Assembly: GCA_003557545.1 (NCBI GenBank)
Contig: PWOD01000095.1
Coordinates: forward strand, 1-8,809
Reading direction: 5' to 3'
DNA length: 8,809 nucleotides
From: a bacterium
GTDB taxonomy: Bacteria; T1Sed10-126
Below the pieces are notes generated by a model that was not told where the DNA came from, did no database searches, and saw only the letters and a program-made list of their open reading frames with translations. The translations under genes were made by a program, and so were the position numbers. Shown in pieces: positions 2 through 7,789 of the stretch. Numbering within the stretch: position 1 is the first letter of the stretch; every line of letters starts with the position of its first letter.

Positions 2-100
2 TGGTTGACGATGAAAACAGTTGATGAAGAGGCTGCTTCAGAAACGATAGTTAGCCGCTTTGAGTGGTTTTTGCTGCGTATATTTGAGGATGTGGAATGA
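2..100 (+). CDS. mrpE: Na+/H+ antiporter subunit MrpE/MnhE, C-terminal fragment
   Basis: Only the last 32 codons are in the window. This is the only forward frame open from the left edge to the stop at 98-100; the other two frames stop early. The tail reads ETIVSRFEWFLLRIFEDVE, which resembles the cytoplasmic C-terminus of MrpE (MnhE), a small membrane subunit of the multisubunit Mrp Na+/H+ antiporter. Its stop codon overlaps the mrpF start (ATGA arrangement), so the two are translationally coupled, matching the conserved E-F-G gene order. The assignment rests mostly on this position in front of clear F and G subunits, because the visible piece is too short to be diagnostic alone. Confidence 0.75.
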   Translation, partial: WLTMKTVDEEAASETIVSRFEWFLLRIFEDVE

Positions 101-366
101 TGGAAAATTTAATCTATTTTTCTATGCTGGTGCTTCTCCTCGCCAGTTACCTTGGTCTGTATAGAGTTATCAAGGGGCCCACTGCACCGGATAGAATTGT
201 GGCGATTGATATACTGGGATTGATTCTGGTGAATTTCTGTGCCCTGTTAACAGTCTTGACCGGCGAAGATTTTTATATGGGGGTAGCCCTGGCCTGGGCG
301 TTATTAAGTTTTATTGGAAGTATAGCACTGGCGAAAAGGCTGGAGGGGAAAGAGTTTGATGAATGA
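97..366 (+). CDS. mrpF: Na+/H+ antiporter subunit MrpF/MnhF
   Basis: This 89-residue integral membrane protein is the F subunit of the Mrp (Mnh/Sha) cation/proton antiporter, which extrudes Na+ in exchange for H+ and supports salt and alkali tolerance. Three hydrophobic helices are visible, at about residues 4-22, 36-56 and 60-78. Between the first two is the family hallmark RVIKGPTAPDRIVAIDILG, and the length is typical. The start overlaps the mrpE stop; a GAGGA ribosome site at 86-90 lies 6 bases ahead of the first ATG, and a second ATG follows directly at 100. The 3' end overlaps the start of mrpG by a few bases, so E, F and G are one translationally coupled unit. Not known to work outside the Mrp complex. 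Confidence 0.95.
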   Translation: MMENLIYFSMLVLLLASYLGLYRVIKGPTAPDRIVAIDILGLILVNFCALLTVLTGEDFYMGVALAWALLSFIGSIALAKRLEGKEFDE

Positions 367-1195
367 ATATATTGGGTTGATTTTGATTAACCTGGGAATT
401 GTATTTAATCTTGTATCCTGCCTCGGTCTGGTCCGATTGCCGGATGTTTATACCCGTTTGCAGTCTTCAACTAAAGCTGTCACCATGGGGACCAGCCTGG
501 TATTGCTGGGTATCGCTATATTTACCGGCAGTGGTTCTGTTATTGCTAAATCGCTGCTGACCGGTTTTTTTGTTTTTATTACTGCCCCCACCGCCGCCCA
601 TGCGATCGCCCGCAGCGCTCACAACTCCGGGATAAGAGTTGAAAGAATTACGGCCGAGGGACTGATAGGTCGCACCATAGAATATGAGCTACTCGATGTA
701 ATCCGGGTGGGAGAAAAGTTTGAAAAGGATCGGTTTGATTTTTTCCTTGAGACCTGTCCGATTTTTGATCTGGAAGAAAGTCTCACTGAACAACAACTTT
801 TTGAACGAGTTTCAAAGATTCTGGCTCCTCGGTTGAATATGGAACCGGAAACGCTGGAGAATAAGTTGCTTGATCGGGAGCAGGAGGCAACCACCGCATT
901 AGCTCCGCGAGTAGCCTTTCCCCATGTCATAGTTGAGGGTAAAAATATGTTTGAAATGGTTATTTTTCGAGCCAGGCAGGGGGTTAATTTTTCTGCTGAT
1001 GCACCTGATGTAAAAGCCATATTTGTGCTGGTAGGGACTGAAGATCAATGGCATTTTTACCTGCGTTCAATGGCGGCTCTGGCTACAATAGTCAGAGAAG
1101 AGGATTTTTTTGATGATTGGCTTGCCGCCGGAGGAATCGAACAACTTCATCAGCTGTTACTGGAAAGATCAAGGCGCCGTCATAATGCTGATTAA
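359..1195 (+). CDS. mrpG: MrpG/MnhG antiporter subunit fused to a PTS EIIA type-2 domain
   Basis: This 278-residue protein is more than twice the usual MrpG length. Residues 1-93 are a normal MrpG: three membrane helices (about 4-25, 41-57, 61-80), the motif LGLVRLPDVYTRLQSSTKA after helix 1, and the typical FFVFITAPTAAHAIARSA segment. After a linker (about 94-120), residues 125-275 match the PTS EIIA type-2 fold (fructose/mannitol/EIIA-Ntr group): the core ATTALAPRVAFPH places the expected phospho-acceptor at His189, followed by FRARQGVNF and a VKAIFVLVG strand. I infer that phosphorylation of His189 could gate or report on antiport; the usual donor would be HPr or an NPr-like protein. ATG at 359 is preferred over the TTG at 356; GGAGGGG at 342-348 is 10 bases upstream. 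The gene overlaps mrpF, and the continuous frame argues against two adjacent genes. No further Mrp gene follows. Confidence 0.88.
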   Translation: MNEYIGLILINLGIVFNLVSCLGLVRLPDVYTRLQSSTKAVTMGTSLVLLGIAIFTGSGSVIAKSLLTGFFVFITAPTAAHAIARSAHNSGIRVERITAEGLIGRTIEYELLDVIRVGEKFEKDRFDFFLETCPIFDLEESLTEQQLFERVSKILAPRLNMEPETLENKLLDREQEATTALAPRVAFPHVIVEGKNMFEMVIFRARQGVNFSADAPDVKAIFVLVGTEDQWHFYLRSMAALATIVREEDFFDDWLAAGGIEQLHQLLLERSRRRHNAD

Positions 1196-3413: not shown

Positions 3414-3631
3414 GGTTGACAGCAGCAGTCCTGAAACCTTCCGCGATATTGATCGGTTGACCGGTTAGTTGTTGGTAATCAACCTATTTTCGTTAAGGGT
3501 GAAGTTTATAAACTGCTTTTCTAAATCCTTTCCTGTAGTATATTATTAGAAGGGTTAAAAACTGTTGATTGGTCGATAGTTCGAACTAAACCTAACAATC
3601 GACAGCAGCTCCACCACAGGGGATGATTGCC
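3414..3631. other. intergenic region with two perfect 12-base palindromes
   Basis: This 218-base gap lies between the OmpA-like gene and the GYF_2 gene. It contains a weak terminator-like pair, GGTTGA (3455-3460) with TCAACC (3479-3484) followed by TATTTT; the palindrome AGTTTATAAACT (3503-3514); a possible -10 TATATT at 3539-3544 without a clear -35; and the palindrome TAGTTCGAACTA (3577-3588). The last is enclosed by GTTGATTG (3564-3571) and CAATCGAC (3596-3603), which can pair with one G-U. No ORF is visible. Confidence 0.45.
3577..3588. promoter_or_regulatory. palindromic candidate operator TAGTTCGAACTA
   Basis: This is a perfect 12-base palindrome 43 bases before the GYF_2 gene start. 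The 17-base context GATAGTTCGAACTAAAC (3575-3591) recurs, with one base deleted, on the minus strand at 7919-7934 upstream of the encapsulated ferritin gene. A dimeric regulator site is a reasonable reading; the regulator is unknown. Confidence 0.35.
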
Positions 3632-4201
3632 ATGCGATGGTGGGTCTACCAGAATGGCGAGATATCTTCACAACCTTATTCAGAAGAACAATTAGTGCAG
3701 TTGTCTGGATTTACCGGGGAAAGCTTGATTTGCAAAGAAGGAACTGAAACCTGGTGTAGGGCCCGGGATATCCCTCGCATAAAAACCGAGCTGAATCGGC
3801 AAACAGTCAAAAATAGTTCTAATCCTCCATTGAAATGTCCTCCCGATTTCAAAAAAGATCAGCGTATAAATACTGCCGAACGTGTAAAATTAACTCAGGA
3901 AATATTGAATCTGGTTGCCAATGAAAACTATCGGTACGGTCTTGAAATCACAGCTTCCTTGCTGGCTGGTGAGTTAGATGAGCGGTTGATCAGTATTGGT
4001 CTAACAGAACATCCTCATTTTGGTTTTTTTGATAACTATCAGACCGAACAGCTGCGGATTGTTATACATAAACTGATTAATTGTCAGCTGCTTGAACAGA
4101 AAATAGTCGCCGGTGATTTTGAGGTTTTAGAGCTTACTCCGCTTGGTAACGAGATTTTGCAGGGTGCGCCGGTACCGAACTTTAACCTGCCCCGTTACTG
4201 A
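3632..4201 (+). CDS. GYF_2-type domain protein with RQC-like winged helix
   Basis: This 189-residue protein appears soluble. Residues 1-50 fit a GYF_2-like module (MRWWVYQNGE..SQPYSEEQLVQL, then W41 and RDIPRI), usually a peptide-binding domain. After a polar linker (about 51-80), residues 86-178 resemble the RQC domain of RecQ helicases: ILNLVANENYRYGLEI, a LLAGE step, FGFFDNYQTEQL, IHKLINCQLLEQ and the end LELTPLGNEILQG line up from memory with RFG...IRG...YG...IRQLI...LQLTE...VLRGE of E. coli RecQ. RQC is a DNA-binding winged helix, but no helicase domain is present. The ATG at 3632 is chosen because AGGGG (3618-3622) lies 9 bases upstream; the ATG at 3623 abuts that site. The next gene starts 28 bases downstream, so the two may be cotranscribed. 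Its function is unknown; DNA or protein binding is inference. Confidence 0.7.
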   Translation: MRWWVYQNGEISSQPYSEEQLVQLSGFTGESLICKEGTETWCRARDIPRIKTELNRQTVKNSSNPPLKCPPDFKKDQRINTAERVKLTQEILNLVANENYRYGLEITASLLAGELDERLISIGLTEHPHFGFFDNYQTEQLRIVIHKLINCQLLEQKIVAGDFEVLELTPLGNEILQGAPVPNFNLPRY

Positions 4202-4942: not shown

Positions 4943-4975
4943 TTGATTGTCGTTTGGTTTTACACTATATATAAT
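4943..4975 (+). promoter_or_regulatory. promoter of the phospholipase D-like gene
   Basis: A perfect TATAAT at 4970-4975 is preceded at 17 bases by TTGTCG (4947-4952, 4 of 6 to the -35 consensus). An overlapping alternative is TTGATT (4943-4948), 17 bases, TATATA (4966-4971). Transcription would start near 4982, about 39 bases before the ATG at 5021. This also argues against any start codon upstream of the -10. Confidence 0.6.
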
Positions 4976-5020
4976 AGTCTGGTGTGGCAAATTATTTTTT
5001 GGCTCCTGGAGGAGATTCTG

Positions 5021-6280
5021 ATGAAAAGATTTGGTAGCTCCGTAATCGGTGCAGTACTGATAACCCTGTTATTTCTGGGATTTGTTCCATTGATAAATGC
5101 CGCCGAGTTCGATCTGGTACCTGATTCGGGACAGCAGTTTGTTTTTGAAACTGCCCCCTCCGGGACCACACTTGATCATCCCTATATTCCTAACAGTTTT
5201 GATGTATGGATGGCGGGGATTGAAGCGGCCGATGAACTGATCCAGATAGGAGCATTTTATTTTCAGGATTGGGAAAGAGGCTCGACCCGGTTAACAGAGA
5301 TTTTGGAAAAGCTGGTTGATAGAAGTCGTCAGGGAGTCAAGGTGGAAATTCTCACCGATACTGCGATCGCCTCACCTCCTCAATACCTGGATGCTGAAGA
5401 TAACATTGAAGTTAGGTTCGCAGCTTATCAACAGCATACTAATGGAGTTATGCATGCCAAATATCTTATTATTGATGGGCAGATTATTTATGTCGGCAGT
5501 GCAAATTTTGATTGGCGCTCTTTGGAGCATATTAGGGAAATAGGGCTGGCAGCCAATAATCAGCGAGTTGCCAGACAACTGCAGACACTGTTTGAAATAG
5601 ATTGGGAGCTGGCCACCGTGGAGGATGATGATTTCTGGGTTAATTACTCTCCGCTGAGGGAGCCTGTGGCGTATCATCAGATAGTTGAGGATAGTTTTGT
5701 TATGCCGAATGATCAGGAATTGATTTTAACTGCCACACCCTATCAAACCACTCCGGAGGATATTAAGCTGGCCGATGATGTTATTATTCGGATGATTAAT
5801 AGTGCAGAAAGACAGGTATTTATAGATATTTATAATTATGACAAGTGGGATTTTTATAGCCAGAGGTACTGGGATGAATTGGATAGAGCGATTCGTCGTG
5901 CCGAAGCCCGCGGGGTTAATATTTTTATGTTACTTCCAGATTGGTCCTTGAGTCGTACAACCCAGGCATATTTGAAGGGGTTGGCTTTACTCGATAATCT
6001 GGAGGTTCGAATTATGAGTATTCCTAACTGTGAAGAGCTGGGTTATGTTCCCTTTTCCCGTACGACTCACCCGAAGCTGCTGATTGTCGATGATAAATAC
6101 GCCTGGCTGGGGTCAACTAACTGGTCGAAAAACTATTTTACTGCTACTCGGGATGTGGATGTTGTAACCTCTAACCGACAGGCGGTAGAGGAGCTTAGAA
6201 CATTCTTTTTGACCGGGTTTCAAAGTGAATATACTGAACTTCTGGATCCGGCTCAAACCTATATAAGGCCCTTGAGGTAG
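5021..6280 (+). CDS. secreted phospholipase D-superfamily protein with two HKD motifs
   Basis: This 419-residue protein begins with a standard signal peptide (KR, then a hydrophobic core at about 8-25, cleavage after INA at residue 27), so it is exported to the periplasm or beyond. Two HKD motifs are intact: HAKYLIID at 145-152 followed by GSANFDWRS, and HPKLLIVD at 350-357 followed by GSTNWSKN. The two copies make a complete active site in one chain, as in PLD, cardiolipin synthase and related phosphodiesterases that work through a phosphohistidine intermediate. The substrate is not readable: phospholipid hydrolysis or transfer, or nuclease activity, are all possible. The ATG at 5021 follows GGAGGAG (5008-5014) at 6 bases and has a matching promoter. 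Its PagL-like neighbour upstream makes an envelope-lipid role attractive but unproven. Confidence 0.9.
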   Translation: MKRFGSSVIGAVLITLLFLGFVPLINAAEFDLVPDSGQQFVFETAPSGTTLDHPYIPNSFDVWMAGIEAADELIQIGAFYFQDWERGSTRLTEILEKLVDRSRQGVKVEILTDTAIASPPQYLDAEDNIEVRFAAYQQHTNGVMHAKYLIIDGQIIYVGSANFDWRSLEHIREIGLAANNQRVARQLQTLFEIDWELATVEDDDFWVNYSPLREPVAYHQIVEDSFVMPNDQELILTATPYQTTPEDIKLADDVIIRMINSAERQVFIDIYNYDKWDFYSQRYWDELDRAIRRAEARGVNIFMLLPDWSLSRTTQAYLKGLALLDNLEVRIMSIPNCEELGYVPFSRTTHPKLLIVDDKYAWLGSTNWSKNYFTATRDVDVVTSNRQAVEELRTFFLTGFQSEYTELLDPAQTYIRPLR

Positions 6281-6630: not shown

Positions 6631-7425
6631 TTATTTAAAAGGCAAAACAGCCTCAGGACCGTTCACTTTTAAGACAAAAGATTCAAACAGGAAAAACTCT
6701 ATTTCGTCGCTGGTGTGACTGTTGTAACCTATAGCCGTTTTATGGCCAAAAATAAGTTTGAAATCGTCACCACGTCGTGAAATTAGCAGTCCTGGTTCTT
6801 TTAAATCAGGATTCAGTACAACGTTACCACCGAGAATTTTTTCTAACCTTAAATCAAGTGGATATCCCCGGTTATAGGCGGAATGGAGGCTACTGTAAAA
6901 TTCTGGGGTTAACAGCAGTGAGTATGGTCCGCCGACACCCTGCTGTTTAAGCGTACTGATCGCGCCTGTGACGACACCGGTAAATTCTGATATATTATCA
7001 GAAACTTTTACTGCTGAATTTTCGGCTCCAGGAATGATCCCGGTTATACTGGCTTCTTTTAAGCCGTAAAGGGTGATCTGGTTTTCAGCCCGAGCCAGCT
7101 CGCGAGCTGCCGTTTGAACCGGCTCAAGATCGGCCGCTTCATTTCCTCGCAGGGCTGACTCCAGTTCAGTGCGATTAACTGTGAAGGGTATTTTTATTTC
7201 CAATACCGGCAGTGATTCACGCAGTGATAAACTGGTTTTACCTTCAGATTTCAATGATTTTGTCAGACCGGTGTTGACAGCCGAAAACTCAATCCCTCGT
7301 GGACCTTCTAGATCAACGATCTTTCGGGCGGTAAGGTTTAATCCGAGCATTTCCCCGGCTTCCTCTTCTATTAGCTCCCACAAATCTCCTGAAATTGGTG
7401 CCTGACTGCGATTCAATAAACTCAT
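6631..7425 (-). CDS. encapsulin shell protein (family 1, linocin-M18-like)
   Basis: This 264-residue protein is the shell subunit of an encapsulin nanocompartment, a virus-capsid-like (HK97 fold) sphere that encloses cargo enzymes in the cytoplasm. The N-terminal arm MSLLNRSQAPISGDLWELI and the following ARKIVDLEGPRGIEFSAVNTG are hallmarks of family 1 shells. GLKEASITGIIPG (about 121-133) fits the extended loop region, and the C-terminal FLFESFVLKVNGPEAVLPF is also typical. The length fits a small T=1 type shell. The ATG at 7425 is chosen because AGGAGAG (complement of 7434-7440) lies 8 bases upstream; an in-frame GTG at 7434 would overlap that site. It follows the encapsulated ferritin gene by 34 bases on the same strand, the standard cargo-then-shell order, so the compartment very probably stores iron. 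Confidence 0.95.
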   Translation of the reverse strand: MSLLNRSQAPISGDLWELIEEEAGEMLGLNLTARKIVDLEGPRGIEFSAVNTGLTKSLKSEGKTSLSLRESLPVLEIKIPFTVNRTELESALRGNEAADLEPVQTAARELARAENQITLYGLKEASITGIIPGAENSAVKVSDNISEFTGVVTGAISTLKQQGVGGPYSLLLTPEFYSSLHSAYNRGYPLDLRLEKILGGNVVLNPDLKEPGLLISRRGDDFKLIFGHKTAIGYNSHTSDEIEFFLFESFVLKVNGPEAVLPFK

Positions 7426-7459
7426 CAATAACACTCTCCTTTATTTGATTGATCTGTGA

Positions 7460-7789
7460 TTAAAAGTTCAAACCACCTGTTGCATCTTCTTCGGAATCTT
7501 CATGCTCTTCAAGTTCAGTAATACTGCCTTCGGTAAAAAGGTAGGTTCTCAGCTCTTCGTCCCAGGTTTCACTTTGTCTGCGTAACCATTCAAGACCCAT
7601 GCAGGCGTGCTCGATCTCTTCGTCCCTGTTATGTTCGACAATTGCTTTGAGCTCAGGGTCATTGGTCAGAGAGGCTCGCTGGTTATACCAGTTAACAGCC
7701 TCCAGCTCCTCAATAACACTCTGGATCATTCGGTGATATTCTCGTGCTTCTTCCGGTAGTTCTGCAGCAGGTTCGTTGTATCCGCTCAT
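7460..7789 (-). CDS. encapsulated ferritin (EncFtn) cargo protein
   Basis: This 109-residue protein belongs to the half-ferritin family that assembles into an annular decamer and oxidises Fe(II) inside encapsulin. Two helices carry the iron ligands: IEELEAVNWYNQR (about 26-38) and NRDEEIEHA (54-62). Compared from memory with Rhodospirillum rubrum EncFtn, a uniform shift of four puts Glu28, Glu58 and His61 at the ferroxidase centre, Tyr35 beside it, Glu27 and Glu30 at the entry site and Trp34 nearby. After an acidic tail the protein ends in TGGLNF, the probable peptide that docks it to the shell interior. The ATG at 7789 follows AAGGAGG (complement of 7799-7805) at 9 bases. It is first in the operon with encapsulin and rubredoxin. 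The Glu/Asp-rich tail may help hold iron; that is inference. Confidence 0.93.
   Translation of the reverse strand: MSGYNEPAAELPEEAREYHRMIQSVIEELEAVNWYNQRASLTNDPELKAIVEHNRDEEIEHACMGLEWLRRQSETWDEELRTYLFTEGSITELEEHEDSEEDATGGLNF

Follow-up and report, generated by a model that had tools for sequence, protein, structure and literature searches.

The mrpG gene of a bacterium of the T1Sed10-126 lineage (probably Candidatus Busufiota, a phylum of two genomes; PMC11382960) runs in a single frame into a type-2 EIIA domain of the phosphotransferase system (PTS), a combination that appears to be undescribed. The fused domain is most likely, judging from its sequence, a cytoplasmic phospho-switch on the MrpG helix that adjoins the proposed cation gate, and a probability of roughly 0.6 is assigned to the reading in which MrpG of an Mrp/Mbh-type module carries a regulatory EIIA domain whose His189 would be phosphorylated by HPr and whose state-dependent docking would set cation flux. 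Tolerance of salt and alkali depends centrally on Mrp antiporters. An earlier note on this DNA had described the fusion and had proposed that Na+/H+ exchange could be modulated by phosphotransfer from the PTS; the fusion is borne out by a one-frame product of 278 amino acids, by Pfam matches to both halves, and by full-length orthologues, and the putative phosphotransfer control of Na+/H+ exchange through MrpG::EIIA is plausible. The same note knew of no described EIIA case on Mrp, and the literature searched, from which most subscription papers were absent, likewise yielded no EIIA domain on an Mrp subunit, no Mrp complex controlled directly by a phosphorelay, and no description of direct post-translational control of an Mrp antiporter. 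EIIA domains on single-chain transporters are already known, being readily found by domain search and, in LacS, known experimentally.

The window analyzed here is an entire contig (C98) of 8809 bases from a draft genome (G000) of 2.15 Mb that is about 92% complete. The features of the fused gene and its neighbors, with the evidence for each, are the following.

2 to 100, plus strand: 3' end of mrpE; the frame reads WLTMKTVDEEAASETIVSRFEWFLLRIFEDVE and then a stop, and matches the end of MrpE in the related genome G001
97 to 366, plus strand: mrpF (Pfam MrpF_PhaF, E 1.1e-15)
359 to 1195, plus strand: mrpG::EIIA fusion gene, 278 amino acids (open reading frame, Pfam, orthologues)
359 to 637, plus strand: MrpG membrane module, residues 1-93, with three helices at residues 2-26, 30-56, and 60-89 (Pfam, AlphaFold2)
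587 to 589, plus strand: codon of the essential MrpG proline, P77 (role: PMC7419157, PMC5703873)
638 to 727, plus strand: linker, residues 94-123 (VERITAEGLIGRTIEYELLDV...), shared with the EIIA domains of APC permeases; low pLDDT at residues 98-105
728 to 1192, plus strand: EIIA type-2 (EIIA-Ntr-like) domain, residues 124-278 (Pfam; AlphaFold2 pLDDT mostly >90)
875 to 877, plus strand: codon of Arg173, equivalent to active-site Arg57 of E. coli IIA-Ntr (alignment; role: PMC1201152)
923 to 925, plus strand: codon of His189, equivalent to the phospho-acceptor His73 of E. coli IIA-Ntr (alignment)
1058 to 1060, plus strand: codon of Tyr234, aligned with His120 of E. coli IIA-Ntr and His111 of IIA-Mtl (alignment; meaning: PMC1201152)
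1216 to 2028, minus strand: convergent gene for a HEAT-repeat protein (Pfam), which also neighbors the fusion in G001

The fused gene begins 8 bases inside the end of mrpF and reads through its 278 codons without an internal stop. The rest of mrpE lies on another contig of the host genome (C15), where its 5' part ends in ...TLTVEATDEG, so that about five codons are absent between the two contigs. The HEAT-repeat gene is probably outside the mrpG::EIIA unit. Farther along the window are a 192-amino-acid protein (3623-4201, plus strand) that begins with a GYF_2-like part, ends in an RQC winged-helix domain, and lacks a helicase, which is an unusual small combination; a protein with a probable signal peptide and two phospholipase-D-type (HKD) motifs (4943-6280, plus strand), with matches of NucT/cardiolipin-synthase/DrmC-like type; and, on the minus strand, an intact family-1 encapsulin shell gene (6631-7434) with an EncFtn ferritin-like cargo gene (7460-7789). 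PADLOC gave only generic PLD, HEAT, and RQC likenesses for three window proteins.

The N-terminal half of the fusion protein matches PhaG_MnhG_YufB (PF03334) at residues 9-88 over profile positions 1-80 of 80 (E 4.7e-24; 84.9 bits against a Pfam cut-off of 23.4), and it exceeds the cut-offs of the MnhG models of NCBIfam, including the equivalog TIGR01300 (88.5 against 63.1 bits). It shares the three-helix module, the conserved proline, and the gene position after mrpF with MrpG/MnhG/PhaG of the CPA3 (Mrp) antiporters and with MbhC of membrane-bound hydrogenases; known MrpG proteins stop shortly behind the third helix, whereas here a further 185 residues follow, made up of the linker and EIIA. 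The C-terminal half matches PTS_EIIA_2 (PF00359) at residues 138-268 over profile positions 11-142 of 144 (E 9.6e-18; 65 bits against a Pfam cut-off of 27). The homologous regulatory unit includes the linker and starts near residue 93, before the residue 125 given in the earlier note. The EIIA domains of the copies in G001 and at loci L115, L116, and L117 score 55.9-74.6 bits against PF00359, while matches of the window protein to the EIIA-Fru/PtsN models of NCBIfam lie below their cut-offs, the PtsN equivalog TIGR01419 reaching 33.8 bits, short of 138.7. Both halves are also recovered by a search of solved structures.

An AlphaFold2 model built from 33 aligned rows (mean pLDDT 89.1) shows with high confidence an MrpG fold of three membrane helices and an EIIA-Ntr fold of alpha/beta type, joined by a linker that is weakly defined (pLDDT <50 at residues 98-105). 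The N-terminal part aligns with the MrpG subunits of solved Mrp complexes (6z16_G, Z 13.1; 7qru_G, Z 13.0; 7d3u_G, Z 12.9), and the EIIA part with IIA-Ntr of Neisseria (2a0j; Z 18.4, rmsd 2.1 over 145 residues) and of E. coli (1a6j; Z 17.8). The fused domain thus shares its fold (Z 18), acceptor histidine, and arginine with EIIA-Ntr (PtsN) of these two bacteria, but PtsN is a soluble, separate protein that lies apart in the tree, and the fused domain has a tyrosine in place of the second histidine. Loop 1 between the helices and the C-terminal end are both positively charged, which places the C-terminus on the cytoplasmic side; EIIA is attached directly to the third helix.

A frame error, as raised by the earlier note, or a chimeric contig could have joined two separate genes; in favor of this alternative is that the window makes up a complete contig, of 8.8 kb, in a draft assembly. 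A full-length orthologue with 76% identity from end to end is present in G001, which represents another genus of the family. A three-row profile also located the fusion, at about 50% identity, in a second phylum (Elusimicrobia by NCBI label), where three genomes out of 16 carry it: G386 (two copies), G400, and G401. A contig scan with the window protein alone gave no matches, and the same scan with a two-row alignment found loci L081-L084; surveys of 386 and 392 genomes located the fusion nowhere beyond G000 and G001, and in a plasmid collection no match reached 80% query coverage, the best ones being to MrpG only. The frame is intact in the independent assembly of G001 and in four more copies, so the architecture is neither a chance nor a sequencing join: the six full-length copies lie on separate contigs of five genomes and are alike in junction and linker, which rules out a frame error or contig chimera for practical purposes. 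Constraint also runs across the MrpG/EIIA junction. Between G000 and G001, differences at codon positions 1, 2, and 3 number 68, 25, and 160, and dN is 0.14 for MrpG, 0.07 for the linker, and 0.25 for EIIA, with dS saturated (>2.4), so that both halves are under purifying selection; the linker is the best-conserved part (91%). In addition, the MrpG halves form a single clade in their tree (99/99), as do the EIIA halves (SH-aLRT 99), which makes a single fusion event the simplest history. A further frame of 189 amino acids at L083 (352-921, plus strand; on a contig shared with L118) joins the first ~43 residues of an MrpA C-domain to an EIIA domain, and is either a natural internal deletion of an mrp operon or an assembly chimera.

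The similarity of the fusion protein to its nearest relatives begins at residue 93-94, upstream of the Pfam border, and these relatives of residues 93-278 are the linker and EIIA of APC-type permeases (33-41% identity). The linker, VERITAEGL...IEYELLDV, is common to amino-acid permeases with a C-terminal EIIA (VERITAKELTT.SLE.ELKEI). The fused EIIA lies inside the permease-EIIA group of the tree, with soluble PtsN-like proteins, the host's included, outside it, a placement that rules out capture of the host's soluble PtsN and supports, at the level of sequence, descent of the EIIA module from amino-acid-permease EIIAs. The permeases in question (609-656 amino acids) have a homologous linker and EIIA but are single-chain amino-acid transporters, most of which keep the second histidine, whereas the fusion belongs, as one subunit among several, to a cation antiporter. 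At L107 (1-2061, plus strand), a P-type cation ATPase carries a C-terminal linker and EIIA cassette of the same kind, and the occurrence of the linker-EIIA on both amino-acid permeases and a P-type ATPase marks it as a regulatory cassette that is portable. Na+/H+ exchangers of the CPA family whose C-terminus is an EIIA domain, of which one occurs in the host and one adjoins mrpG::EIIA in Elusimicrobia, are likewise cation/proton antiporters with EIIA at the cytoplasmic end; they differ in an unrelated membrane part (PF00999) and mostly in another EIIA lineage. The host's CPA exchanger (L044, 3339-5882, minus strand), its other EIIA-bearing transporter, has a weak Usp match and a degenerate C-terminal EIIA in which the active-site arginine is replaced by leucine, and this domain may be a pseudo-EIIA.

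The preserved phospho-acceptor claimed for the fusion, His189, aligns with the active-site histidine of E. coli IIA-Ntr (1a6j) and is the sole residue identical across all EIIA domains compared (73/73), and Arg173 is kept in all fusions. The second active-site histidine is replaced by tyrosine in all seven fused EIIA domains (Tyr234); H232, considered as a conserved second histidine, was rejected, as it lies two residues off the true position and varies (Ser, Asn). A study of Neisseria IIA-Ntr links the second histidine, His111 of IIA-Mtl, with donation to IIB and considers it unlikely to play a part in IIA-Ntr (PMC1201152). With tyrosine instead of the donating histidine, the fused domain looks like a terminal phosphate acceptor without onward transfer, and the loss speaks against a sugar-PTS donor role of the IIA-Mtl subgroup, not against an acceptor role.

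A candidate donor for such an acceptor is encoded in the host, as the earlier note had suggested checking: one HPr gene and one EI gene lie side by side in a ptsN/rapZ-type cluster with yvcK, rapZ, a PtsN-like EIIA, hpf, and lptB (names from sequence reading), and the counterpart in G001 also holds rpoN. EI and HPr are present in G000, G001, G400, and G401. A PTS_EIIC family search found no permease in G000, G001, or G386, so that the relay seems to have a purely regulatory function and a sugar-PTS role was rejected for these three genomes. The EIIA fold might nevertheless serve as a phosphorylation-independent cytosolic control domain, acting allosterically through a ligand, an ion, or a partner protein, a mode of action that may also apply to the N-terminal, EIIA-like domain of SLC4 anion exchangers. 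This is the main rival, less likely than the relay but a real one. The SLC4 exchangers use the EIIA fold as a cytosolic domain and are not known to involve phosphotransfer. Structure comparison found the fused module to resemble these SLC4 domains (PMC4664831), and the second histidine is lost; in G386, which has two fusion copies in a draft that is perhaps incomplete, EI was found and a match to HPr was not. Similarly, G030, rated 100% complete, has matches to neither EI nor HPr and carries APC::EIIA, EIIA::CitMHS, CPA::EIIA, and a small EIIA-only protein (L039, L120, L121, and L122), from which it follows that an EIIA module of such a type can persist without the relay; regulation by EIIA without the classical relay and a diverged kinase are two possible explanations for this genome. 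Against the rival, His189 and Arg173 are retained in every copy of the fusion, in contrast to the loss of the arginine from the EIIA of the host's CPA antiporter, and EI and HPr are found in most carriers.

Control by phosphorylation of His189 is the preferred reading, and a sequence of steps can be proposed for it. EI would charge HPr from PEP, and HPr-phosphate would phosphorylate His189. On the cytoplasmic face of MrpG/MrpE, docking may differ between the phosphorylated and unphosphorylated forms of EIIA; this is the place where the third helix of MrpG meets the ferredoxin-like domain of MrpE in the proposed Na+ path, and docking there would raise or lower cation flux. In a solved Mrp structure, the third helix of MrpG is broken by the essential proline at its cytoplasmic-side contact with the MrpE ferredoxin-fold domain, perhaps as a part of Na+ gating (PMC7419157). 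The unphosphorylated form would be the likelier inhibitor, a direction suggested by analogy with E. coli, in which PtsN without its phosphate binds to YcgO, a K+/H+ antiporter, and inhibits it (PMC11808508). PtsN also acts on TrkA and KdpD (PMC13104625), so that EIIA-Ntr is already linked to monovalent-cation transport through its phosphorylation state; PtsN binds these K+ transport targets from solution, whereas in MrpG::EIIA the domain is fused. A precedent for the fused arrangement is LacS of streptococci, whose EIIA domain on the transporter is phosphorylated by HPr, altering transport, although that domain belongs to the Glc-type EIIA family and the substrate is a sugar (PMC10710835).

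The fused gene closes an operon of the order mrpA(C)-B-C-D-E-F-G::EIIA in the host genome (contigs C15 and C98), in G001, and at L081 and L117. No gene for the N-terminal NuoL-like domain of MrpA was found beside the mrp cluster at any of these four places, only the C-domain (171-196 amino acids) next to mrpB; NuoL-like genes were located in other clusters. Compared with canonical Mrp, the fusion operon therefore has the MrpA C-domain and subunits B-G without an adjacent MrpA N-domain, for which reason antiport by the MrpG::EIIA complex itself is something that we infer, and the name Mrp/Mbh-type module is used in place of canonical seven-subunit Mrp. Operons of the mrpA(C) type were noted at L098 (403-3391, minus strand), L034/L052, L081 (2335-6008), and L117 (4402-8065, minus strand), without adjoining hydrogenase genes in G001 and at L081, and their gene content is read as an Mbh-type ion module standing alone. 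A second mrp cluster in G000 and in G001 has a plain MrpG and, in G001, adjoins group-4-type hydrogenase genes.

The neighbors of the fused gene bear on another possibility, in which EIIA acts in trans as a membrane-tethered domain that binds another target, such as a neighboring CPA::EIIA exchanger, a ClC channel, or the soluble phosphorelay, with Mrp mainly as its anchor. At the Elusimicrobia loci L081 and L117, the gene after the fusion encodes a CPA exchanger that has an EIIA domain too, at L081 with a ClC-type channel gene after it, and at L115 and L116 the fused gene adjoins a ClC-type gene; the second EIIA-bearing exchanger at L081 and L117 counts in favor of the phospho-switch as well. 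The G400 copy (L116, 4585-5424, minus strand) stands without adjacent mrp genes, next to the ClC-type gene and a cation-chloride-cotransporter-like gene (both named from sequence only), and the known targets of PtsN are other transporters (PMC13104625). The genes downstream of the fusion in the host genome and in G001 do not encode transporters, however, and the linker to MrpG, as the best-conserved part, suggests mechanical coupling, which makes action in trans improbable.

A CBS domain pair is fused to MrpG at L085 (1451-2170, minus strand), L086 (1285-2004, minus strand), and L087 (1677-2453, minus strand), giving proteins of 239-258 amino acids (Pfam-tested in L085); the genes are followed by ferredoxin-type and hydrogenase-maturation-type genes, and the hosts are relatives of the Elusimicrobia that bear MrpG::EIIA. 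The location of MrpE and MrpG within the dimer interface region (PMC7419157) would allow EIIA to be a structural or assembly element, for example in MrpE docking or dimer stability, without a switching role. Such an element does not need an invariant catalytic His/Arg pair, and the CBS pair at the same place in sister genomes points to regulation, so this explanation is given very little credence. The CBS fusions suggest, in turn, that control of the complex is generally exerted at the MrpG end.

The sources of G001 and G386 are soda-lake sediments of pH 10 with 70-400 g/L salt (PMC6146748). Under the proposed phospho-switch, the PEP and energy state of the cell would set the extrusion of Na+ (or K+) at pH 10 and high salt, and the fused EIIA suggests that salt and pH balance are tied directly to energy metabolism. 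A wider statement, for which the odds are judged to be about even, is that an Mrp/Mbh-type antiporter is switched by the PEP-EI-HPr relay through EIIA at the cation-gate helix, that the same linker-EIIA is portable among amino-acid permeases, CPA exchangers, P-type ATPases, and Mrp, and that a PTS without sugar permeases is a general controller of ions and solutes. The fused EIIA would give a defined handle on the antiporter, consisting of one histidine, one donor (HPr), and one helix, at the proposed cation gate, to which the domain is attached. The action of PTS-Ntr, long tied to K+ balance by binding in trans, would thereby become testable in cis on cation/proton exchange, and the fusion could explain the retention of EI, HPr, and EIIA in organisms in which no PTS sugar permease is found.
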